A stretch of 64,000 nucleotides of DNA from Pycnopodia helianthoides. Its lineage: Eukaryota; Echinodermata; Asteroidea; Forcipulatida; Asteriidae. Location: positions 12,906,974 to 12,970,973 of the forward strand of contig CM063263.1 in the NCBI GenBank assembly GCA_032158295.1. Direction: 5' to 3'. Positions 2,918 through 58,895 of the stretch are shown here, one piece after another; within the stretch, counting starts at the first letter, position 1; each line of letters opens with the position of its first letter. A model generated the notes under the pieces. The model was not told the DNA's origin and ran no database searches. It worked only from the letters and a program-made list of their open reading frames with translations. The translations under genes and the position numbers were made by a program.

Positions 2918-5900
2918 CTGAAAACGAACAGCAAAAGTACGTTTTATTTCTTTGCTTCAAACTGCTTAAAATACATTTTCCTCATGGCATTTGGCAAATC
3001 AAGAGAAACACAGTAAAAACTCTTGCTACACATTGTTGCCAATCTGACAAACCTACGAATAAGGTAAACCTTAAGGCAAATGTCAGATTTGCAACAACAT
3101 GTTGAACTGCAAAGTGATTTCAATATTTAGGGTGAATTACAGAACTAAACAAGCGATTACTCAAGTAATGAGAAGATTAACCCTGGATAACCCAGAAAAA
3201 CCTCCACAAACCTTAGCATTTTTTGTTGTTTACAATATGAGAAATGTTTCATGCAGAATTGGAACCTTTTTGAATCCCTCTCTCTAAAACCACATTCCTT
3301 TAAAGGGAATTGTTTCTCAAAATGTTATTCATTACCAACAGCTGTAGTGTTTCTTACCAAGTGAGTTTTCATGGTCATCTATTTTTAGAGCAATTACCAA
3401 AGATGTACTATAAATAACGTAGTTTGGGGTTGAACAAAGAATAATTTACTAGAGCGGGATTTGAACCAATGACCTCCGGAATAACGTACCAGCGCTCTAC
3501 CAACTGAGCTATCTATATTGACAAAATAGATAGACCGCCAACATAGGGCTAGATAGCTCAGTTGGTAGAGCGTCGATACGTTAATTCGGAGGTCGTTGGT
3601 TCAAATCCCACTCTAGTCAATTTTTCTTTATTCAACCACAAACTATTTTAAATTTACCCAGTCAGTTTCCCTAGTGGTTCTCTACTTGACATTTAAATAA
3701 TGTACTCACAATTTTTTTAATATGAGCTAGAGCACTCTCTTTGCCTTTACAGTCTTCTGTACCATAGGGAGGATGGACTGTAAAATCACCTGCTAGTGCT
3801 ACTATGCTTACACCTTGCCATTCACATGGGATTCTGCACAAGAGATAAAATACATGCCATTACGGGAGATAACCCAAATCCCCACTATCCGAAACCATAA
3901 AGCAGAGACGCCTACAGTTTGCTGGACACTGTTTGCGTACAGCTGATCAACCCATATCGCACCTGATCTTCTGGAATCCTTCTGGCGGACATCCAAATCA
4001 CGGCAGGAGGAAAATGTGCTATCCAGACACCATCACCAAAGACACAACTCTCAATCTAAACAAAACCTAACAACTCATGAGGCAGGCCTTGCGCTTAAGC
4101 TTTTTGTAAAGTAGCCCGCCGGTCCAGTAAACTGTGCATTTTACTTGCCCCCAGGAAGTTTTAGTAGCCCATATTTTAAACAGGTATTGCCATAAATGTA
4201 ATGTTCTGATCACAACCAGTTTAATGATCAACTGAAGTTATATTCACACACTCAAGAACAATTAACACATTTTATACATTAATTATTTACATCTAAAAAG
4301 GGAGAAATTAGCATTTTAAACAAGGGGGTTGCACAGTTTTTAGAAGCCCACAGGGCAAGTTAAGAAGTGGTGTTTACTAGCCCATGGCATTTTTTACTAG
4401 ACAATGTACGCCGGACTAGTGTTAAGGGCAAGCCCTGTGAGGGATAAAGCAACCTGGCACCATTTCATCAAAGTTGCTTCTACTATTCCGTCCAAGGACG
4501 AAGGATGATGATGATGATGGGAGATAACACTGGTATACCCACTTTATACAGAGCTATAGTATTGTCAAGTCTGTCCCGAGCCGATTTGGCTCATCAGGCC
4601 GGTGTTTATATCAAGTTTCATTGGCAGTAAACGACTGAGAATAATTGGATTCCCCCTGGACAGGATGCCAGACCTTCTCAGGTTACTCCCCGGCTGATAC
4701 TCGTATCCCTCCTGGGTGGAGAGAAGCAATTATTATAAAACACCTCTCTCAAGGACACAAGTGTCATGACTGACCAAGCGTCACAGACTCTTTAATACAA
4801 CATCAAACAGACTGAGATATCAGGCAATATTTGTGTCTTTACTTACGTTTTCCTGATAGTTTGGAATAAAAGTTGGGCCTCTACACTAACGCCTTCTTTA
4901 AGTAATCTGAAAGAATTCTTTTTGGCTGCAATGGCATCTTCCGCTCTCTTGCTCAGCTGCAAAATTAAAATATATAAATAATTAACAATTTTACAAATGA
5001 ATTATGCCTGAATGACTTTGATTACTCTTTTAATTACCCCCCCAAAAATTGAAAAAAGGATATGGTTTGTGCAAACTGCTTACCATCTCAATTGCAAGAA
5101 GAGCATCACATTTGAAAAGGTGGTTTAAGATTGTTGTTTTGGTTGCAGTAAGCAATGAATGTTCTACAGGAATACGACTTGGTATCTATGTTATCATGCA
5201 TCTAAGTTTATTAGAATTCTGTAGGAGTTTCCCATTCATTGTGTTAACCTTTCACTTCTGTGAACCCCGGGTTCGAGTCTCACCTCAGTGGGGCAGAGCC
5301 TTCCATGTGGATTGGGTTTCACTCCCTACTCGATTGTCTGAGTTTTTCCTTTAACATCTAAAACCAGGCCTGAATTAACATAGAGGCCACGCCTCTGTTG
5401 CCCTGGTTTTTGCCTTGGTGTCCCTTCAAATGTTTCCCATTGACTTTTAAGATTTTTTAATGGAAGTGCCCTTTGCAAAATTATCTTGCCCTTTCAAAGA
5501 TGAAACTTCAGCAGGCCTGTAAAACATCATTTTATTGTCTCGTTTATATTCAACTTTATTGGAACTTGTGCTGTAAATAAATTAAATATCGAGTAATAAA
5601 CCACAAACCAGTCAGTTTCCTTTGTGGTTTATTACTTGATATTTCAAATAAAAAGTCACATCCCCTTGAAATGATCCCTCTGCTGCCGCTTCCCAGGTTG
5701 TATCATAAACTTGGGTGTGATCCCTGGCTATACCGCAGTTACAGGTTGAATGGCTTCTGATTGGCACCCCCGAACAAAGTTATCAACAAAATAGGGAGAC
5801 CGCCAACATTAGGGCTAGGTAGCTCAGTTGGTAGAGCGCCAGCACGTTAATCCGGAGGTCACAGGTTCAAGTCCCACTCTAGTCAATTTTTCTTTGCTAA

Positions 5901-7838
5901 ATTAATGAAATTAAAAGTACCTTTTGGATGTTGAGAGCAGACAACTTCGGCTGTGGATCTGATGAAACCTTTTCTACTTGAGGGTCCTTGGCATGACTTA
6001 AATTGACGATGCGTATATCAAATGTGTTCTTTCTCTCACTGTTTGTGGAAGGTGTTTCTGTTTCCATTGGTCAAGGAGAATTTCATTTTACATAATAATA
6101 ATAATAATGGCTTCTTATATAGTATACATATCTGTCCACTCAGTGACACTCAAGGCGCTTCAACATTCAGTATTTTCCTGCAAGGTATTGTGGAGCTATG
6201 TTTTGAAGTATTAGACCTATTCCTCTACATAGCACCATGTACATGATGTAATGGTTTACAAGGTGCTGTGGCGCAATATGCTGCCAATCAAACCAGGAAC
6301 ACCGGGGCGAACCCCTTCTCTTTTTGATAAGTGCACTGGGTTCTTTTACGTGCATTACACAATACACGGGACCAACGGCTTTACGTCCCATCCGAAGGAC
6401 ACAGCAATAATGGTTAAGTGTCTTGCTTGAAGGACACAAGTGTCACGACCGGGACTCGAACCCATACTTGCTGAACAGAAACAACAGAGCTTGAGTCTGG
6501 TGCTCTTATCCGCTCAGCCACGACAAGCTTGCAAAAAGTCTACCAAACAAATTGGTACTCCGCGCGCAGCAACGCTGGTAGACTTGGGTAGACTTTTTGC
6601 AAGCGCAGCAAAACAGTCGTAGGAAAAAACAAACTGGTACTCCCTGCGCATGCAACTCTGTGCCCGCACCGGTATTTGTTACAACACTGTTTGAATGGGA
6701 TCTGAATTACGGTAATAATTTACCGCTTTTTAACAATTTTTTATTTGCGGAGTAGATTTTCTGGATCAGCGCAATGCTCAATGAGAGTTCAAGGAACACC
6801 TAGAGCCTAATTTTGGCGAGATCCGGTTTCAAATGAGATCCCCAGGTGCAGAAACATGAAGGGCAAAAAGTTGTGAATAGGATTTTGTACATGTAACTCT
6901 ACGAGGTTCGTGGAGACGATAGCGGATCGAACCACATAATTCTAGGAGTACACAAACCCCATTTGGGTCAACTAAAGAATGCAGGTACATGTACACTTCA
7001 AAGCTATACCTGCGCCTCCGCAAAGTTGGAGTCACAGTCAAGTAGATACTCCCCTGATTTATTTCATTGTATTCCCACCATGGCCATGCAAAATTTCATA
7101 TCCTACATACTTGCTTACAGCTACACAACAAAACCTGTCCTCAACTCCCTCAAGTTAGTTAGCCTGCCTTTTTCTTTTGCTCTCAGATTCTTTGCTTCTT
7201 AATCTTAACTCCAATAAAGTTCTTGGCCCAATTTCATGACAAAGCTAATACCGCAAAATACTGCTTCAGACTTCAGACGACGCCATATAAGCACAGAATT
7301 CTGCTGTAAATGGAGCCATGAAGTTGGACCCTGGTGGTTAACTGAGACGAGGACTAGGAGAGTAGGACCACCAGCCACCAGGGAAAAGTTTATTATCAAG
7401 AATCAAGGGTTGCTTCCTCAAAAGAGTCTGTTTACAGGCAGTATGAAAATGGCCCTGGGTTCTTCATATATTATGGAACTAAAGCTTTAATTAGTAACTA
7501 GTAGTAGTGTTAGTATACTAGTAATACTATATAGACAAATGCTTTAATAAACACACGACACGTTACAACAATTCAATCAAGAATTAGCCGTCAACCAAAA
7601 AATTGTCCTCAGTGGTGGTGAGAAGTTGTGTGAGTCGTAATACGTACGTCAAACTCCAAAATAACATGAAATATATCAGTAACTTTACGACAAAAAGGAT
7701 ACTGAGTACCAGCAACTTGCTATTTGAATCGTAAGCCATCACTTCCCCTGAAATTCTCTCCTCAAAACACGTCTTGCATGACACAAAATTGCCGACTTTG
7801 AATAACCCATCGCCAAATGTGTTCATGTTCGTCGCCAT
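2876..7838 (-). CDS. lsm12: LSM12 homologue, complete five-exon gene
   Basis: LSM12 is an ataxin-2-associated, RNA-binding cytoplasmic protein; in vertebrates it is also described as an NAADP-binding partner of two-pore channels. Coding exons on the minus strand are 7838-7703, 6057-5921, 4956-4847, 3833-3710 and 2917-2876. They total 549 nt, encoding 182 residues against about 195 in human. All four introns are GT-AG and all junction phases agree. Residues about 8-72 form the Lsm-like domain (VGNFVSCKTC, GEVMAYDSNSKLL, then DIRIVNL). Residues about 82-170 form the LSM12 anticodon-binding-like domain (LNIQKLSKRA, LLFQTIRKT, VHPPYGTEDCKGKESAL). The start ATG sits in CAAGATGGCG. The weakest point is the exon 1 donor (A/GTATCC), chosen because it restores a lysine codon and the family alignment. 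Introns carry SINEs and foldback repeats. No canonical AATAAA is obvious downstream, only a TATAAA variant near 2665. Confidence 0.93.
3426..3690. mobile_element. tRNA-like foldback element, copy 1 (lsm12 intron 4)
   Basis: Two tRNA-like arms face outward. One is on the minus strand at 3448-3518, the other on the plus strand at 3547-3618, separated by only about 28 bases of spacer. The left cloverleaf has lost its proper 5' acceptor strand. The plus-strand unit ends in TCTAGTC and then a T run. A module containing the complement of GGGAAACTGACTGGGTAAAT sits at the right end (about 3643-3690). The same module occurs at the left end of the 12.6 kb copy. Confidence 0.8.
3547..3618 (+). pseudogene. 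tRNA-like cloverleaf
   Basis: This 72-nt cloverleaf has the acceptor stem GGCTAGA/TCTAGTC, the D arm GCTCAGTTGGTAGAGC and the T loop TTCAAAT. The anticodon loop reads ACGTTAA, which puts C instead of the invariant T at position 33 before a GTT triplet. The anticodon stem is weak in this copy. I read it as a repeat-borne tRNA relic, not a working tRNA gene. Confidence 0.65.
3710..3833 (-). CDS. lsm12: lsm12 coding exon 4
   Basis: 124 nt encoding the third base of T128 and residues 129-169. It contains VHPPYGTEDCKGKESALAHI, the most conserved block of the LSM12 C-terminal domain. The acceptor is TGTGCAG and the donor is ATT/GTGAGT at 3709-3704. A foldback repeat starts about 18 bases beyond the donor. 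Confidence 0.94.
4084..4437. mobile_element. Foldback repeat in lsm12 intron 3
   Basis: The ends are inverted: AGGCCTTGCGCTTAA at the left matches the complement of TTAAGGGCAAGCCCT at the right with two differences. GTAGCCC/CCGG blocks inside are also roughly inverted. There is no coding capacity. It is likely a non-autonomous DNA element. Confidence 0.5.
4562..4795 (-). repeat. SINE-like fragment in lsm12 intron 3
   Basis: The stretch ends with CAAGGACACAAGTGTCATGA, which recurs next to the tRNA-derived SINE at 6.43 kb (GAAGGACACAAGTGTCACGA). The preceding part (GATGCCAGACCTTCTCAGG, CTCCTGGGTGGAGAGA) is typical of old invertebrate SINE bodies. The tRNA head is not recognisable here. Confidence 0.4.
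4847..4956 (-). CDS. lsm12: lsm12 coding exon 3
   Basis: 110 nt encoding residues 92-127 plus two bases of threonine 128. It reads LSKRAEDAIAAKKNSF and GVSVEAQLLFQTIRK, close to the human LASKARTEKEEKL...GVSLEGQQLFQTIHK segment. The acceptor is TTTTGCAG and the donor is a consensus GTAAGT at 4846-4841. Confidence 0.93.
5225..5352 (+). repeat. tRNA-derived SINE fragment, family E
   Basis: It carries a pol III B-box-like GGGTTCGAGTCTC, then CACCTCAG...CAGAGCC...CATGTGGATTGGGTTT and CCTACTCGAT. The same order of blocks recurs at 59.93-60.05 kb, so this is a dispersed family. It lies in lsm12 intron 2. Confidence 0.5.
5588..5897. mobile_element. tRNA-like foldback element, copy 2 (lsm12 intron 2)
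   Basis: It starts with a hairpin (GAGTAATAAACCACAAA and its inverted partner around AACCAGTCAGTTTCC), continues through the same 220-bp body as the 13 kb copy (GTGATCCCTGGCTA, TTCTGATTGGCACCCC) and ends with a 72-nt tRNA-like unit at 5813-5884 plus a T run. Only one arm is present, so this is a single-arm form of the palindrome at 12.6-13.2 kb. Confidence 0.8.
5813..5884 (+). pseudogene. tRNA-like cloverleaf
   Basis: Acceptor GGCTAGG/TCTAGTC, D arm GCTCAGTTGGTAGAGC, T loop TTCAAGT, and the same ACGTTAA loop lacking T33. It is followed by AATTTTTCTTTG, which contains a T5 pol III terminator. It is the terminal module of the surrounding foldback. Confidence 0.65.
5921..6057 (-). CDS. lsm12: lsm12 coding exon 2
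   Basis: 137 nt. It completes lysine 46 and encodes residues 47-91. It holds FDIRIVNLSHAKD, the last Lsm strand, and ends LSALNIQK at an AAG/GTACTT donor. The acceptor is AACAG with a modest pyrimidine tract. A tRNA-like foldback ends 22 bases into the following intron. Confidence 0.92.
6270..6527 (-). repeat. tRNA-Leu-derived SINE
   Basis: On the minus strand from 6527 the sequence follows a tRNA-Leu(CAA) gene: A box TGGCTGAGCGG, then GCACCAGACTCAAGCTCTG with the CAA anticodon region, a long variable arm, and B box GGGTTCGAGTCCC. A tRNA-unrelated body follows (GGGACGTAAAGCCGTTGGTC, CACGTAAAAGAACCC). A related copy lies at 49.7 kb on the opposite strand. A TAA microsatellite at 6092-6107 lies beyond its 3' side. 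Confidence 0.7.
6527..6604. repeat. Perfect 18-bp inverted repeat beside the SINE
   Basis: GCTTGCAAAAAGTCTACC at 6527-6544 pairs perfectly with 6587-6604 across a 42-nt loop. The adjacent AAACAAATTGGTACTCCG block is repeated imperfectly just downstream (6629 on), which suggests local duplication at a SINE insertion site. Confidence 0.7.
7703..7838 (-). CDS. lsm12: lsm12 coding exon 1
   Basis: Encodes residues 1-45 plus the first base of codon 46. It opens MATNMNTFGDGLFKVGNFVS and includes the paired cysteines SCKTC of the family's Lsm-like fold. The donor is GTATCC at 7702-7697, which is weak. A GTACTC four bases earlier in the transcript would break the alignment. Confidence 0.9.
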
Positions 7839-8019: not shown

Positions 8020-11000
8020 GAGTACAGACTTAAGTTTAATAATTATTGAAATTCATGTAGGAAAATTGTCTGTTACAACCACTAAACTTAGAATACAAAA
8101 AAGTGTGCAAAGTGTTGTACTTGTTAAAATGTTGGTCATTATGTATGTACATGTGCAATGTACATACAGTGTGTACTGATGATTGTTGGAGTTGTTAACG
8201 ACCGCTACATGCTTAGCCTATATATTTGTTAATTACAAAATGCAAATTTTCCACCGCTCAAATAGATTGTGTCATTGTGTTCTTGACTTTAGTACATCAG
8301 CGACAATACCATGAACATGATGACATCGGGGCTCGAGCGAGCCAGTGATTTGCTGCATCGGTCCGTCATGGTCTAAACTCATGCTGGACAAGTCGGACAG
8401 TCTTCGTGTTTGTTGAATTTCAATCTTTCAATTCTGTAGAGTAGTGAAGAATATTTACCCATAGTACAAATAAGATAAGTCTTTCCAAGTTCCTCTAGTA
8501 CTTGTTCAAATTAAAACAGTGTTACCGGCATGACCGGTATTGGTTTTTTCTCATTTCAATTCTTGTCTTATAAAATAATAGTTCTGGCTCAGTCCAATTG
8601 TTTTGCTTCAAGTCCACGGTCTTGTGGATTTTCCATCCAAATTTGAAACCTGCCATGTTAATCTTAGCCTACCCCTCTGAGTTGAGTGAGTAAAACGGTT
8701 GGGTCCGTGACTTGTGGTTGTACACCACAGCAGGCCCTGCAGCAATGCCCCGAATAATGTTAATCATTGTAAAGACGACAATCATGAAGACAGACGATAT
8801 ACCGCCGTAGCGAATTAACGCCAGATAGCTTGTGAATTATTACAACTTGTTATCAAATTAAAATGTGACAACCTGTACTGATGGAGGTAGTCATAATGCT
8901 GTGCATTATACACCAGTGTACACGATTGTAACCAATAAGGTCCTATTGAAAAAAACAAATCTAGTTGTTATTGCTACAAATCATCCATAGACAATGACCC
9001 CATGAGAGTCTTAAGACGTTACATTGATATCTAAAATGTAAAGCTACAATTTATGGCAATTAATTATTTTACGAAGGATCTGAAAATAGTTGCCTTATTA
9101 TTCCGAACCAATCAGTCTTGGCTGAAAAAAAAATTTACAAACTTGACATCAATTAATGAAGTGACAAGAAGAAGATTAGAATCCGGGAGAGATTTTCTAG
9201 CATATTTGACTGATTTTGATTTTGATCTTATCAGATGGACACTAACATCGTGTCTGAAGCAGTCAGTTAATCGTTATCAAAAATGTATTAAATGATTATG
9301 CCGATTTGAATTTCGTGTGGCGTCCTTTGTGGTTTAGCCGGATTTTGTAAATCATTATTTGATAAGAAAATGGGTTTCCGGTATGCTCGAAATGCATTTG
9401 ATAAAGTAATGACAGAAGAGGTACACGGGGGATGACCCAAATCCACCTGACATGGGGGGGGGGGGGCGGTGAGAGTGGAACATAATCTTTTAATTCAAGT
9501 CTATTTGCTGACCTGGAGGTCACCCTGTAACATCACTTCCTTTCAAAATAATACACCGGTTGAAATATTGAGTGAAACCCTAGCCTCTAATTGCCTCTCA
9601 CCTGCGTATTCCGACCTCCTAGTGCGCCCGGTCGTTATTCACCGTGGCTAGAGGGGCCTTGGAGCTCAGAGGTGGCGGGGATAAAGTATCGCGATGGCCT
9701 GACATCAAAGCATGACCGCGGTATGTCGTTTAAGGTCCCGGTGGTGAGGGGAAGACATGGTAATTAGAGGTAGGTTCGTTACGGGCGAATGAGAGCGACG
9801 GGTCCGCCTAGCCCTGTCAGCTCTCAGACGGGGAGACTGTTTTGATTTATAGTGGGGAAGTTGTTTGTTTGGAAAACATTGTGCCATGGAGTGACGTGTT
9901 TCAGCCAAATTATTGAAACTTCAAATTCGAAACATAAAAATATATCAAAATAATTAGAGACACTATTCAGTTGAGGAGGGTGAGGGCGTATGTGCTTGGG
10001 CCAACCTCTCATGCCTTCATAGATAATCGTAGTTACATTCCTTTAAAATAATATATATAATTTGTTCATTTTGTTATAAATGATTATATATTTTTTTAGT
10101 TTAATAAAGACCCTCGCTGAAGTCTTCAATCAAGACCTTTTGGACCTGTCCCCAAGGGTTCTCTCTCTCCCCAAGGGTATCGTCATTTTAGATCACTGAC
10201 CACCTCTCACCTGTGGTCTCAGAGAACACCAAGACCATTGTTCATTGAATCTATGCTCCACTGATGTCTACACCTGCCTTACCCCCCTCGGGGGAACACC
10301 AAGGTCCCTCTGATGCTCATAATAGTAGGGGCAGAGGTCGTGGACCTTACAAGAACCGAAACTAATGGGGCCCCTCTACCACTAAGGTGAGAGGGTGCAT
10401 CTCAAGGTGAAGCTGTTGAAGACAACTTCATCTACATCAGACTATATCATAATAAAGACAAAGTACACCTTGAGAATGCCTTAAGGCATCCTTTCGTTGT
10501 GAATCAAAAGAGCATGAGTTTTATAAGTCTGGATACCTTGGAGACGCTTTACGATACAGTGTGCTTTACCACCTGTCTGAAGTTGATAAAGATGTCTTCG
10601 TTTTTGACCTTTCACGTCAGACGGGAAAATAAGGGATTTTATAGAGTTACTTGTGTAACAATCTATGTCAGTGGTTGATGGTACATTTGAAGTTTTCTGT
10701 AGAAAGGCAGCATGTCATGCAAAGCAATACAGTGAATCAGTTAATAATTTATTCAATTAATCTACAGCTCTTTTGTTGCACAATTTCTCTTTGATTTTAT
10801 AATTTACTCATTACTTTGTCACAATTTCCTTATGTAAGTCAAATCAATTAGAACACCAATGTGTCCAGAATGAGGAATATTGCTTACGTCATTCTTAGAC
10901 AACCGTCTCCCACTGTTTTACTTTTGATTAAGACGATTATCTCTATATTTTTAACTGAAGAGGCGGGGTTTGAGGATATGGGCTAAGGTTGACCTAGGTA

Positions 11001-12600: not shown

Positions 12601-12702
12601 TTTGACAAAAAGTTATCACAACTTAAGTTGTCAAGTAATAAACCACAAGGGAAACTGACTGGGTAAATTTCAAATAGTATGGGGGTTGAACAAAGAAAAA
12701 TT

Positions 12703-12774
12703 GACTAGAGCGGGATTTGAACCAACGACCTCCGGATTAACGTACCGGCGCTCTACCAACTGAGCTATCTAGCC
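12703..12774 (-). pseudogene. tRNA-like cloverleaf, left arm
   Basis: 72 nt with the acceptor pair GGCTAGA/TCTAGTC (6 Watson-Crick pairs plus one G-T), a perfect D stem GCTC/GAGC, an anticodon stem CCGG/CCGG, loop ACGTTAA and T loop TTCAAAT. C at position 33 and one mismatch in the T stem argue against a functional tRNA. Confidence 0.7.
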
Positions 12775-13106
12775 CTATATTGGCGGTCTCCCTATTTTGT
12801 CAATATCTTTGTTCGGGTGCCAGTCAGAAGCCATACAACCGTTAACTGCCGTGTAGCCAGGGATCACACCCAAGTTTACGATATAACCTGGGAAGCAGCA
12901 GCCACGGGATCACCTTGAGGGGATGCGACTTTTTCAATTTAATTGAAAAAGTCGCATCCCCTCAAGGTGATCCCGTGGCTGCTGCTTCCCAGGTTGTATC
13001 GTAAACTTGGGTGTGATCCCTGGCTACACGGCAGTTAACGGTTGTATGGCTTCTGACTGGCACCCCGAACAAAGATATTGACAAAATAGGGAGACCGCCA
13101 ATATAG

Positions 13107-13178
13107 GGCTAGATAGCTCAGTTGGTAGAGCGCCGGTACGTTAATCCGGAGGTCGTTGGTTCAAATCCCGCTCTAGTC
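13107..13178 (+). pseudogene. tRNA-like cloverleaf, right arm
   Basis: This is the inverted twin of the left-arm unit, identical over its length. A and B box equivalents are intact (TAGCTCAGTTGG, GGTTCAAATCC), and the unit is followed by a TTTTT terminator. Pol III transcription of the unit is plausible even though tRNA function is not. Confidence 0.7.
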
Positions 13179-13221
13179 AATTTTTCTTTGTTCAACCCCC
13201 ATACAACTTAAGTTATCACAA

Positions 13222-20299: not shown

Positions 20300-20546
20300 T
20301 TAATATATGATAAATTTGCATCGGGGATAACAAATATTTGGTTTTTACCCTAATACCGATGTATGTAAAGCACTGTATACTCGGTACTTTCCCGAGTCCT
20401 GTAAAAAAAAAAAAAAAGAATGGCAAAGGTCGTGGGTTTGAATCCCACCCGAGTAACTTGCCAGTGGATTTTTTCAAAGGAGTCGGTAAAGTACTGAGTT
20501 ATACAGTGCTTTACACACATGGGTGTCAGAGTAAAAACCAAGTAAT
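20300..20546. mobile_element. Inverted-repeat element with internal tRNA-like B box, family C
   Basis: Left arm TTTACCCTAATACCGATGT...GTAAAGCACTGTATACTCGG (from 20343) is the imperfect inverse of the right arm ending at about 20541. Between them are an A run (20403-20417) and GTGGGTTTGAATCCCAC, a pol III B-box-like stem-loop. A fragment with the same ATAAATTTGCATCGGGGATA start lies at 34.93 kb. Confidence 0.65.
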
Positions 20547-32377: not shown

Positions 32378-32524
32378 AGGGTCAGAAAATCCGAATCGAC
32401 CTGGATTCCGGATCCAACGGGGGGCTGACCCATTTCTGGGTCAGTCTAACCCAGAAATGCATCCGGACCCAGAAATGCATCCGGCCCCCACAGGACCCGG
32501 AATCCGGGTCAATTCTGACCCGGG
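32378..32524. repeat. Small GC-rich foldback
   Basis: GGGTCAGAA...CCTGGATTCCGGATCC at the left is the imperfect inverse of CCGGAATCCGGGTCAATTCT at the right. Inside, GACCCATTTCTGGGTC folds on itself and ACCCAGAAATGCATCCGG is repeated in tandem. It looks like a very short inverted-repeat element. Confidence 0.6.
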
Positions 32525-37796: not shown

Positions 37797-38055
37797 CCAA
37801 TATGGGTGGGGAGAATCGGGCAATATGGGGGGGGGAGAGGGTCGGGCAATATGGGTGGGGATGGCTGGGCAGTATGGGTGGGGAGGGCTGGGCAGTATGG
37901 GTGGGGAGGATCGGGCAGTATGGGAGGAGAGGGTCGGGCATTATGGGTGGGGAGGGCTGGGCAGTATGGGTGGGGAGGATGGGGCAATATGGGTGTGGAG
38001 AATCGGGCAATATGGGTGGGGAGAATCGGGCAATATGGGTGGGGAGGGTCGGGGT
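37797..38055. repeat. 23-bp G-rich minisatellite
   Basis: About 11 copies of GGGCAATATGGGTGGGGAGAATC and variants. The plus strand is dense in G3-G4 runs and could form G-quadruplexes. Because 23 is not a multiple of three, a stop-free unit yields open frames in several phases; these are not genes. Confidence 0.95.
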
Positions 38056-48208: not shown

Positions 48209-49056
48209 CATATATGGTATCCATAGAAACTTGTACTTGATGATGATTATCTGTTAATGCTGTGCCATACTGTTCCATGCACCTTCCATTCTCCATACTG
48301 AGAAAGCATAGCTGAGTCTTTCATGAGCCATATAAGAACAGCTTCCGATCATTTTCTGATCTGTCTCATCACTTCTCAAGACTTGGTACAAGAAGTCAAT
48401 ATACCTGGATGCCAGCTTCAGAGTTTGGATCTTGCTGAGTTTATCCGAAGGCAGGGTTGGGATGATCTTGCGTAGATTCGTGAAGGCATCGTTGAGAGAT
48501 TGAGTCCTTTGGCGCTCCCGTACGTTCGCCATGACGCGTTGATTCTGCAGGTCGTCGAAACTCTGTGGAGGGGAGGCCCCCTTCCGACGGTTCTTGGGTC
48601 CGGAGCAGTGCCCGTTTAACGATCCCTCCTCGCTTGCATCGGAGTGTTCGTCGTCGTTGGAGCCAGCGCCCCGGCTGTGGCGGCGCTTTCGACCGTGCAT
48701 GAACCGCTGTTTGAGCAAGTCGTTCCCGTTCATCAGGCAGTCGTGGTGATCGGTTGAGGAGTGTTTGGTCATACCTACAACTGAATACTGATTGTCGGTG
48801 TGGTTGATCATGTCGTTGTTGTTGCACCTCGAATCGCCCGGCTCCATCTTCATGGCACCGGGTACCATAGTCAACCTTGCCGGCAATGCAGTCGGTGGGG
48901 CCCTGCTGTATGCAGCCGTGGTTCTCGGTGTTGGTGTTGGCGGTGGCGGTGTACTTGTGGCCCACTCGTTCTTACCTGTCGACAAGTTACCAAAATTTGG
49001 ACCTGTATATCCTTGCCCCAGTTGGCACGCTGCAAATTGCCTCTTTTGTAGCTGGT
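48209..49056 (-). other. twist main exon (coding plus UTR) inferred from splice sites
   Basis: Upstream of the coding region the minus strand has a long pyrimidine tract ending TTCATTCGCAG at 49057, so an exon probably begins at 49056. The frame stays open from there into twist without an ATG before 48868. Downstream, TATATG/GTAAGTT gives a donor with exon end at 48209, 45 bases after the stop. A second perfect donor, ACAG/GTAAGA with exon end at about 48975, lies inside the 5' part and could be used alternatively. Confidence 0.5.
48254..48868 (-). CDS. twist: Twist bHLH transcription factor
   Basis: Twist is a nuclear class II bHLH factor that binds E-boxes as homo- or heterodimers with E proteins and drives mesoderm and mesenchyme programmes. 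From ATG 48868 the product is 204 residues, against about 202 for human TWIST1. A basic cluster GRKRRHSR (59-66) is a likely nuclear signal, then an acidic stretch and KNRRKG (92-97). The bHLH spans 110-164, with the basic region [12 protein letters not shown], loop [10 protein letters not shown] and helix 2 [12 protein letters not shown]. The C-terminal WR motif [13 protein letters not shown] (186-198) is complete, which separates Twist from Hand, Paraxis and Scleraxis. The frame is open a further 188 nt upstream to a splice acceptor but has no ATG there, so 48868 is the conservative start. If an upstream coding exon exists, the N-terminus would be longer. Confidence 0.96.
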
Positions 49057-49714: not shown

Positions 49715-49945
49715 TTTATGGGCAGAGGACTTTGAGCTCTGCTGATGTTTCTGATCAGAAGAGTGTGGGTTCGAGTCCCGGCCGTGGCACTTGTATCCTT
49801 GAGCAATATTCTTTACTGTAAATGCTCTGTCCTTCGTACTGGACATTAAACCATAGGTCCCGTGTAATGTGACGTAAAGGAACCCAGAATACATTTCGTG
49901 GAAGAGTAGTGGCTAACCTCGGTGTTTCTGGTTCACATAACAAGC
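49715..49945 (+). repeat. tRNA-derived SINE, same family as 6270-6527
   Basis: Head GGACTTTGAGCTCTGCTGAT...GTGGGTTCGAGTCCCGGCC with a B box, followed by the shared tail blocks GGCACTTGTATCCTTGAGCA and GTAATGTGACGTAAAGGAAC. The A-box part is eroded. Confidence 0.65.
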
Positions 49946-50220: not shown

Positions 50221-50283
50221 CCAGAAGACGATCAGAGCATACTGATCGAAACGTCGAGTTAACCAACGGTTCTTTTCAGAACC
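50221..50283 (+). mobile_element. Penelope-like 3'-end fragment with hammerhead-like hairpin
   Basis: CAGAAGA, a hairpin CGATCAG/CTGATCG and then AAACGTC resemble the CUGANGA-stem-GAAAC core of the small hammerhead ribozymes reported in Penelope-like elements. The next hairpin GGTTCT/AGAACC completes a block I associate with such element ends. The U-to-A change in the core and the imperfect fit after the stem mean it is probably inactive. Confidence 0.35.
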
Positions 50284-50330
50284 ACCCCAACTCAATAAGA
50301 GACAGTATTACATGGTTGTCACCGCAAGCC

Positions 50331-55925: not shown

Positions 55926-56248
55926 AAAGGCAGTGGATACTTTTAGTAACTACTCAGGAAATATATTTCCAAAAAAACTTACTTAGTAAGGAGCACCTTT
56001 AGTTGTTGAGAAAGAGGTAACTTTTCAATAAAATAAGATTTGAATCTAAGAAATAAAGCCTTTCTCAGGCTTTTGAAAGCACACAATTCTATGCAATAAG
56101 AGTGTTTTTTCTTTCATTATTTTCTTGCAACATCGATGACCAATTGAGCCAAAATTTTCACAGGTTTGTTATTTTATGCATATGTTGGGATACACCAAAG
56201 TGAGGATACTAGTCTTTGGCAATTACCAAAAGTATACCCCGCCTTTAA
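55926..56248. mobile_element. MITE of the 4-345 family, fullest copy
   Basis: Left end AAAGGCAGTGGATACTTTTA and right end complement AAAGGCGGGGTATACTTTTG are inverted. The internal TTGAAAGCACACAATTCTAT and CACAGGTTTGTTATTTTATG blocks match the family body; the first is shared with 60.3 kb. No reading frame of note. Confidence 0.75.
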
Positions 56249-58287: not shown

Positions 58288-58895
58288 AAAGACAAACAAA
58301 CACCCAACAAACAAACAACACCCAACAAAAAAACAACACCCAACAAACAAACAAACACCCATCCAACAAACAAACAAACACCCAACAAACAAACACCCAA
58401 CAAACAAACACCCAACAAACAAACACCCAACAAACAAACACCCAACAAACAAACACCCAAACAAACAAACACCCAACAAACAAAACACCCAACAAAAAAA
58501 CAACACCCAACAAACAAACAAACACCCACCAAACAAACAACACCCAACAAACAAACAAACACCCATCCAACAAACAAACAAACACCCAACAAACAAACAA
58601 ACAAAAAACACCCAACAAACAAACACCCAACAAACAAACACCCAACAAACAAACACCCAACAAACAAACACCCAACAAACAAACACCCAACAAACAAACA
58701 CCCAACAAATACCCAATAAACAGACAAACACCAACAAACAACAAATACCCAACAACAACAAACACCCAACAAACAGACAAACACCCAACAAACAACAAAC
58801 ACCCAAAAACAAACAAAACCCAACACACACAAACAAACACCAACAAACAAACAAACATCAACACAAACAAACACCCAACAAACAAACAAAAACAT
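58288..58895. repeat. 15-bp A/C-rich minisatellite, about 40 units
   Basis: The unit CCCAACAAACAAACA and 11-19 bp variants fill the block. The 15-bp unit contains no stop codon on several frames of either strand, giving spurious long frames that would encode Asn/Thr/Gln-rich or Val/Cys/Leu/Phe-rich repeats. These are not genes. Confidence 0.95.

Follow-up and report, generated by a model that had tools for sequence, protein, structure and literature searches.

The window, a 64,000-nucleotide stretch of the Pycnopodia helianthoides genome, holds three members of a repeat family, referred to here as copies A, B, and C. An open reading frame (ORF) at 48254 to 48985 (minus strand) encodes a twist-type bHLH protein, with 90% identity to an ENA protein; it matched twist of Acanthaster planci at 84% (88% of the query) and that of Patiria miniata at 75% (97%). 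Ten other ORFs of the window had no Pfam match over the curated cutoff. The ORF at 9035 to 9292 (plus strand) gave a weak Pfam ART match (E value, 0.0055; 16.5 bits, below the cutoff of 22.3). An Rfam Histone3 3′ stem-loop at 50263 to 50308 (plus strand; 37.5 bits; gathering score, 34) may be a repeat end that resembles a histone stem-loop. Nearby (49755 to 49900), the B-box-like motif GGTTCGAGTCC is followed by a body that may resemble a widespread animal SINE core. Inverted repeats at 32390 to 32518 (53-nt arms, 79%) and 20335 to 20544 (45-nt arms, 87%) are possibly small MITE-like elements. Tandem arrays lie at 1381 to 1877, 37798 to 38053, and 58292 to 58890 (units of 19, 23, and 15 bp, respectively), a perfect tandem duplication of 82 bp at 2181 to 2343, and dispersed repeat pairs of about 76 to 77% identity at 55926 to 55996/60125 to 60195 and 46 to 135/42329 to 42418.

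The family is built of a unit (u1 to u317) that comprises an arm (u1 to u167), a tRNA-like cloverleaf of 73 nt (u168 to u240), a 25-nt segment E (u241 to u265), a 47-nt segment T (u266 to u312), and ATTTA. Copy B (3422 to 3704) is a smaller inverted copy, and copy C (5589 to 5896) is nearly single armed, with a short antisense foot. In the module map, the order in each of the three copies is antisense block, then sense block, with one outer end at T and the other in E. Their features are as follows.

Copy A
12618 to 12629: left target-site duplication ACAACTTAAGTT, exact 12-bp repeat with 13203 to 13214 (null frequency, 0.00035)
12630 to 12676, minus strand: antisense T segment (u312 to u266; module map), T-type 3′ end toward the left target
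12677 to 12701, minus strand: antisense E segment (u265 to u241; module map), including the T5 pol III-type terminator
12702 to 12774, minus strand: left tRNA-like cloverleaf (ARAGORN; Rfam RF00005, 56 bits)
12775 to 12939, minus strand: antisense arm (module map)
12940: join of the blocks (5′ to 5′) at AATTTAATT
12941 to 13106, plus strand: sense arm (module map)
13107 to 13179, plus strand: right tRNA-like cloverleaf (ARAGORN; Rfam, 56 bits)
13180 to 13204, plus strand: sense E segment (module map, unit coordinates), E-type 3′ end toward the right target
13203 to 13214: right target-site duplication ACAACTTAAGTT, sharing the last 2 nt of E

Copy B
3411 to 3421: left target-site duplication TAAATAACGTA, one mismatch relative to the right copy (null frequency, 0.0097)
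3422 to 3515, minus strand: antisense block with E (aligned from 3426) and tRNA (to u171; module map, unit coordinates)
3516 to 3643, plus strand: sense block with the arm end (from u136), tRNA (3547 to 3619), and E (ARAGORN, Rfam, module map)
3644 to 3693, plus strand: sense T segment plus ATT, with a T-type 3′ end; identity of T with that of copy A, 89%
3694 to 3704: right target-site duplication TAAATAATGTA

Copy C
5578 to 5585: left candidate duplication TAAATTAA (null frequency, 0.008)
5589 to 5606, minus strand: short antisense block, part of T (module map)
5608 to 5896, plus strand: sense block with T (from u280), arm (5650 to 5809), tRNA (5813 to 5885; Rfam tRNA, 36.2 bits), and the start of E
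5898 to 5905: right candidate duplication TAAATTAA

In copy C, 5585 to 5607 pairs with 5621 to 5643 as a 23-bp hairpin. An earlier note had described copy A as a near-perfect palindrome with a nearly loopless center, and this description holds: aligned with its own reverse complement, 12677 to 13204 was identical in 524 of 529 columns, and the arms (12677 to 12939 and 12941 to 13204) are separated by a 1-nt center and differ, as claimed, by one substitution and one indel in a C run. The outward-reading cloverleaf of each arm (73 nt) does run into TTTTT and was recognized in both arms by ARAGORN, as tRNA-Asn(GTT), and by Rfam (RF00005, 56 bits). That name is nominal, because position 33 is a C and one pair is mismatched in both the anticodon stem (T-T) and the T stem (T-C). 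Box patterns found intact A and B boxes, which together with the ARAGORN and Rfam matches bears out the proposed pol III-type tRNA unit.

The palindrome is real, but the element is larger than the palindrome: T (12630 to 12676) is present on the left only, so copy A as a whole is asymmetric. The 12-mer AAGTTATCACAA reported as flanking the palindrome does occur on both sides (12610 to 12621 and 13210 to 13221) and was the choice of a looser duplication search, but ACAACTTAAGTT, of the same length, lies nearer the ends of copy A as other copies define them. At comparable spacing, a 12-bp repeat would arise by chance with a frequency of 0.00035. An ORF across the palindrome center had no protein match in the search, and microRNA matches in the palindrome, which were under the gathering score and reflect the hairpin, were discarded. 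An assembly fold-back artifact is very unlikely, because inversions also occur at 23 other sampled loci, and 16 of these have an exact duplication of at least 10 bp.

Dispersed tandem arrays of a 317-bp unit

The family search covered the source assembly (479 Mb, 742 contigs). With copy A, there were 1,762 first-look candidates, the best 40 of which yielded 167 matches; using copy C, we obtained 69 matches (6,009 first-look candidates) and fetched 20 loci. The first sample (n = 41; copies A, B, and C and 38 fetched loci) was selected for resemblance to copy A and overrepresents young copies of the array type. The second sample consists of the 20 older loci found with copy C, and the 61 loci altogether are similarity biased.

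Among the best 40 of the 1,762 candidates, many matches clustered at 317-bp spacing, in arrays on many contigs. Unit spacing was 316 to 317 bp, and the GC content of the unit was 0.46. Locus L023 (C17:5641400-5646800) contains seven sense units at 317 bp (one at 316 bp) preceded by four antisense units, and the lone variant of these 11 units relative to the reference unit is one C deletion in one unit. A very long array, L025 (G000:C14:360000-368400), has matches that sum to 16.6 units with diverged pieces between them, and it may represent either an old source locus or an array that has expanded. The earlier note had proposed a genome count of single-arm and palindromic copies; in the first sample, 21 of 41 loci had no inversion and 20 were inverted. 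The family is a noncoding, dispersed, mobile tandem repeat with a tRNA-like core, and the palindrome is one copy of it. As the note had said of the palindrome, the family is not a plain SINE, its tRNA lying inside a tandem unit, nor is it a standard MITE, an inversion being missing from 21 of the 41 copies.

In the circular unit, no open stretch exceeds 69 residues. A 65-residue antisense ORF matched 19 predicted proteins on other contigs (17 from ENA and 2 from NCBI), which are translated family copies. DNA patterns of the element had no match in the viral_contigs or genome_contigs collections. Neither a hammerhead nor any other known ribozyme was detected by Rfam (E values up to 10) in 1,101 bases of L023, corresponding to three units including the T-arm join, and the motif CTGANGA was absent from both strands of the circular unit. 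No circularization signal was found in the unit, and its circular fold was unremarkable (z = −1.24). A degenerate B box in the arm was no better than shuffles, 57.7% of which reached it. The unit has no A-rich or simple-repeat tail. In 16 aligned tRNA sequences of older copies, the acceptor and D stems were mostly kept, with no clear compensatory change.

Of the 41 first-sample loci, 30 had exact target-site duplications of at least 10 bp; when left and right flanks were exchanged between loci, 2 of 1,640 pairs did. Their median length was 14 bp (n = 30; 10 to 17 bp, with 21 bp in one microsatellite), the duplicated targets were AT rich, and two of the 30 loci (L015 and L036) sit in TA microsatellites. 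Duplications of this kind flanked 17 of the 20 first-sample inversions. In the older sample, 1 of 20 loci had an exact duplication of at least 10 bp, and 6 of 20 had one when a single mismatch was allowed, a count that has no control. Duplications overlapped the element by at least 2 nt equally often at 3′ ends (28 of 47) and 5′ ends (8 of 13); that target and RNA pair at E and T is therefore assumed in what follows. Of 17 inverted loci, 4 had a duplication that ended in TGT on the side of the T primer, and 6 had one that began with TA on the E side. We rejected a target consensus (ACA at T and TA at E), because bases of the element itself fall within its positions. Likewise, we did not rely on a similarity between target and unit past the E join of copies A and B (P = 0.011 to 0.015 with the copy B join placed post hoc; P = 0.15 to 0.32 with its first placement). 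Tested against AT-rich targets, the same similarity gave P values of 0.041 to 0.060 and 0.25 to 0.44, respectively.

Ends, inversions, and source sequences

Two places account for the sense 3′ ends, namely, E (at about u265) and T (at about u312). In the 21 single-orientation loci of the first sample, the 3′ end was E in 14 and T in 7, and 5′ ends were scattered from u4 to u302. Single-block loci of the second sample comprised 8 E ends and 7 T ends, and L056 consisted of two separate pieces. Many of these 15 older single-block loci have a length of about one unit and a 5′ end near E, but copy C as a query favors such copies.

All 20 inverted loci of the first sample consist of an antisense block and then a sense block, joined 5′ to 5′. 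The outer ends were one E (u251 to u270) and one T (u306 to u3) in 19 of the 20; in the other (L014), one end was T and the other was broken at u223, within the tRNA. In the second sample, L065 and L066 were E-T, L061 had E and a T side 12 nt short, and L060 was E-E. Two-block inversions thus account for 24 of the 61 loci. E was paired with T in 22 of the 23 inversions with both ends assigned, L060 being the violation; the expected fraction at the single-block rates (22 E:14 T) is 0.475 (P, about 1e−6 if the ends are independent).

Blocks ranged from 15 to 2,367 bp, both exceeding two units in L023 and L045, and the pair of join coordinates was different in each of the 20 first-sample inversions. 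Joins had an overlap of 0 to 5 nt or 1 to 8 nt of extra sequence. The coordinates at which the blocks turn differed by 13 to 152 nt in 17 of the 20 inversions. Turns within 3 nt occurred in copy A, L016, and L020 (3 of 20), which is commoner than chance (P = 0.009), and the turn sequences of copy A (AATTTAATT) and L020 (ACTAGT) are nearly or fully self-complementary. In 20 of 20 inversions, one block covered no unit positions that the other lacked; this is telling in copies A, B, and C only, because containment is automatic where a block spans the whole unit.

Variants were tallied per array against the reference unit. At three inverted loci, a variant was present in every covered unit of both blocks: A164G in L042 (2/2 and 2/2), C247G in L045 (3/3 and 3/3), and A64C in L043 (1/1 and 2/2). 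Variants in all units were also found in the single-block arrays L024 (C23T, 2/2), L038 (A164G, 2/2), and L039 (T85C, 3/3), so that A164G marks two arrays. Most remaining variants were confined to one unit, as later mutation would give. Because the variants are in all units, each array with shared variants derives from one unit sequence that is common to both blocks, where there are two; the variants of L042, L043, and L045 show one source sequence, as distinct from one molecule. The exception was L033, in which two variants were partly shared (3/4 and 2/6 units), a pattern that is not expected from one monomer unless there was later exchange.

Proposed mechanism and alternatives

Fixed 3′ ends, scattered 5′ ends, duplications, and AT-rich targets are marks of target-primed reverse transcription, as in LINEs. 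We favor, with somewhat better than even confidence, a nonautonomous tRNA-bearing retroposon with one unit-length template, probably a circular RNA, whose reverse transcription would be primed from one or both target strands. The order of events that we infer is as follows. A unit-length RNA, probably a circle of 317 nt, would serve a borrowed reverse transcriptase as template at AT-rich targets. Antisense cDNA would be primed by a nicked strand of the target, starting either at E (after CATAC, u265) or at T (after TTGAC, u312), and more than one lap of the circle would produce an array of head-to-tail units whose 5′ end is ragged. In a considerable share of events (24 of 61 loci), priming would also occur from the second strand of the target, at whichever of E and T the first had not used. 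Joining of the two cDNA 3′ ends, with 0 to 5 nt of overlap or 1 to 8 nt of filler, would then yield a 5′-to-5′ inversion with E on one side and T on the other (i.e., two-site twin priming). Copy A would be a near-perfect palindrome through both cDNAs having stopped no more than 3 nt apart.

Twin priming is known for L1, with target-site duplications of 10 to 17 bp in 17 inverted insertions (PMC2912911, in part). The same part of that paper treats a two-block insertion as the mark of twin priming, which in L1 depends on microhomology. The almost invariable pairing of E with T suggests a template with a single E site and a single T site in reach, as in a monomer, and the tandem arrays suggest that the template was traversed more than once; a circular monomer would satisfy both. 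Circular RNA has been proposed as the template of the multimeric cDNAs of retrozymes (PMC4918200; PMC7229834), and in metazoans, a tRNA ligase is thought to close retrozyme RNAs (PMC7229834). As pure conjecture, tRNA-processing enzymes might cut and close a circle through the tRNA-like domain of the present family. The fuller reading, which we advance tentatively and with less than even confidence, is a ribozyme-free circular-RNA retroposon with an embedded tRNA-like domain for transcription and perhaps circle formation, rolling-circle target-primed copying, two dedicated priming sites, and both strands primed on one circle.

Two-site priming might instead have taken place on a linear multi-unit RNA transcribed through an existing genomic array, with no circle. 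Such arrays exist (e.g., L025, with its sum of 16.6 units), and transcripts of largely homogeneous arrays would yield homogeneous daughters. However, the many E and T sites of such a template should give E-E and T-T inversions, of which 1 was seen in 23, unless the enzyme holds one E-T stretch; the T5 after the tRNA of the reference unit, moreover, should stop pol III in each unit. We regard this account as rather unlikely.

The earlier note had suggested a snap-back element or template switching during reverse transcription as the origin, and reverse transcription is retained in our reading. Snap-back, in which the first cDNA would fold at its own 3′ end, near or far, and prime itself to make each inversion, is improbable in our estimate. 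It is suited to copy A, L016, and L020, with their close turns and, in copy A and L020, nearly or fully self-complementary turn sequences, and to the containment of one block in the other in all 20 inversions. A self-copy, however, should stop at or short of the start of the first strand, whereas in 22 of 23 inversions the end lies beside the duplication, at the second fixed 3′ place, and turns that differ by 13 to 152 nt in 17 of 20 would need long loops. A further argument against snap-back, from sequence of the second block missing from the first, was dropped, as it is valid in one direction only and containment was 20 of 20. Some inversions may nonetheless be self-primed, because palindromes exceed chance (P = 0.009) and containment was complete. 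The note's very recent origin for copy A stands, and the arm-to-arm conversion it offered as the other option is not needed.

Satellite-like amplification after insertion of a monomer could have built the arrays, since tandem DNA can expand; the partly shared variants of L033 and the many older loci of about one unit would fit. This is quite improbable, considering that arrays begin anywhere in the unit, end at E or T, and mostly lie beside duplications, and that L023 and L045 each have two blocks of more than two units. A palindromic master locus copied whole, from which copies A and B would have inherited the palindrome, accords with the outer boundaries that they have in common and is very improbable given 20 different join pairs in 20 first-sample inversions and blocks of 15 to 2,367 bp. 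A fold-back or MITE-type DNA transposon with a tRNA gene captured in its inverted repeats, which copy A resembles, flanking duplications included, is scarcely credible: 21 of 41 copies have no inversion, duplications vary in length (10 to 17 bp, 21 bp in one microsatellite), and the outer ends differ (E and T) in 19 of 20 inversions, so they are not terminal inverted repeats. The tandem arrays superseded two ideas, namely, a T-flanked Penelope-like unit conceived from copies A, B, and C alone and an estimate of arm divergence that assumed an unhomogenized master.

Comparison with known systems

In its architecture, the family agrees with the non-LTR retrozymes of metazoans. As described in the relevant part of PMC7229834, these are noncoding monomers of about 300 bp with a GC content of <50%, arranged in tandem arrays that are dispersed and vary in size from dimers up to large multimers, with target-site duplications of >4 bp where present and a presumed borrowed reverse transcriptase; the family resembles them in these respects. 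Unlike them, it has a tRNA-like cloverleaf, and a type I hammerhead was not found in the unit. With tRNA-derived SINEs, it shares a tRNA-like sequence with A and B boxes, the noncoding character, target-site duplications, and dispersal. It differs from them in that the tRNA lies within a tandem unit instead of forming a fixed 5′ head, the 5′ ends of single blocks scatter, there is no A-rich or simple-repeat tail, and there are two alternative 3′ ends.

Twin-primed (5′-inverted) L1 insertions likewise consist of antisense and sense blocks placed 5′ to 5′, with short overlaps at the joins and target-site duplications (PMC2912911, in part). Unlike those that this part describes, the blocks of the family overlap and can be multimeric, and the outer ends lie at two fixed places. 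The same part gives inversions as rare in Alu (one example) and SVA (4 of 477), compared with 24 of 61 loci chosen by similarity here. Penelope-like elements, in the portion of PMC8969392 concerned, also have a tandem second copy (the pseudo-LTR), inverted pieces, and 5′ truncation; they encode a reverse transcriptase, with or without GIY-YIG, whereas the unit has no coding capacity (longest open stretch, 69 residues). Helitrons, which are characterized by insertion between A and T without a target-site duplication and by TC...CTRR ends, are set apart by the duplications that flank 30 of 41 loci here. MITEs and fold-back transposons are set apart by the 21 of 41 loci without an inversion and the duplications of no fixed length.

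The literature searched, which mostly excluded subscription journals and was not aimed at ribozyme-free retrozymes, described no such element. If our reading is true, circular-RNA retroposons are not restricted to hammerhead elements, and a tRNA-like domain may substitute. The E-T pairing and the variants common to both blocks would then be genomic evidence that priming from both target strands can take place on a single small template, a stage of retrotransposition that is difficult to observe by other means, and a near-perfect palindrome can be the by-product of two cDNAs that stop at the same place. The family is retrozyme-like and twin-primed-L1-like in its working and carries the promoter of a tRNA SINE, but neither the hammerhead of the retrozymes nor the 5′ head of the SINEs was found.
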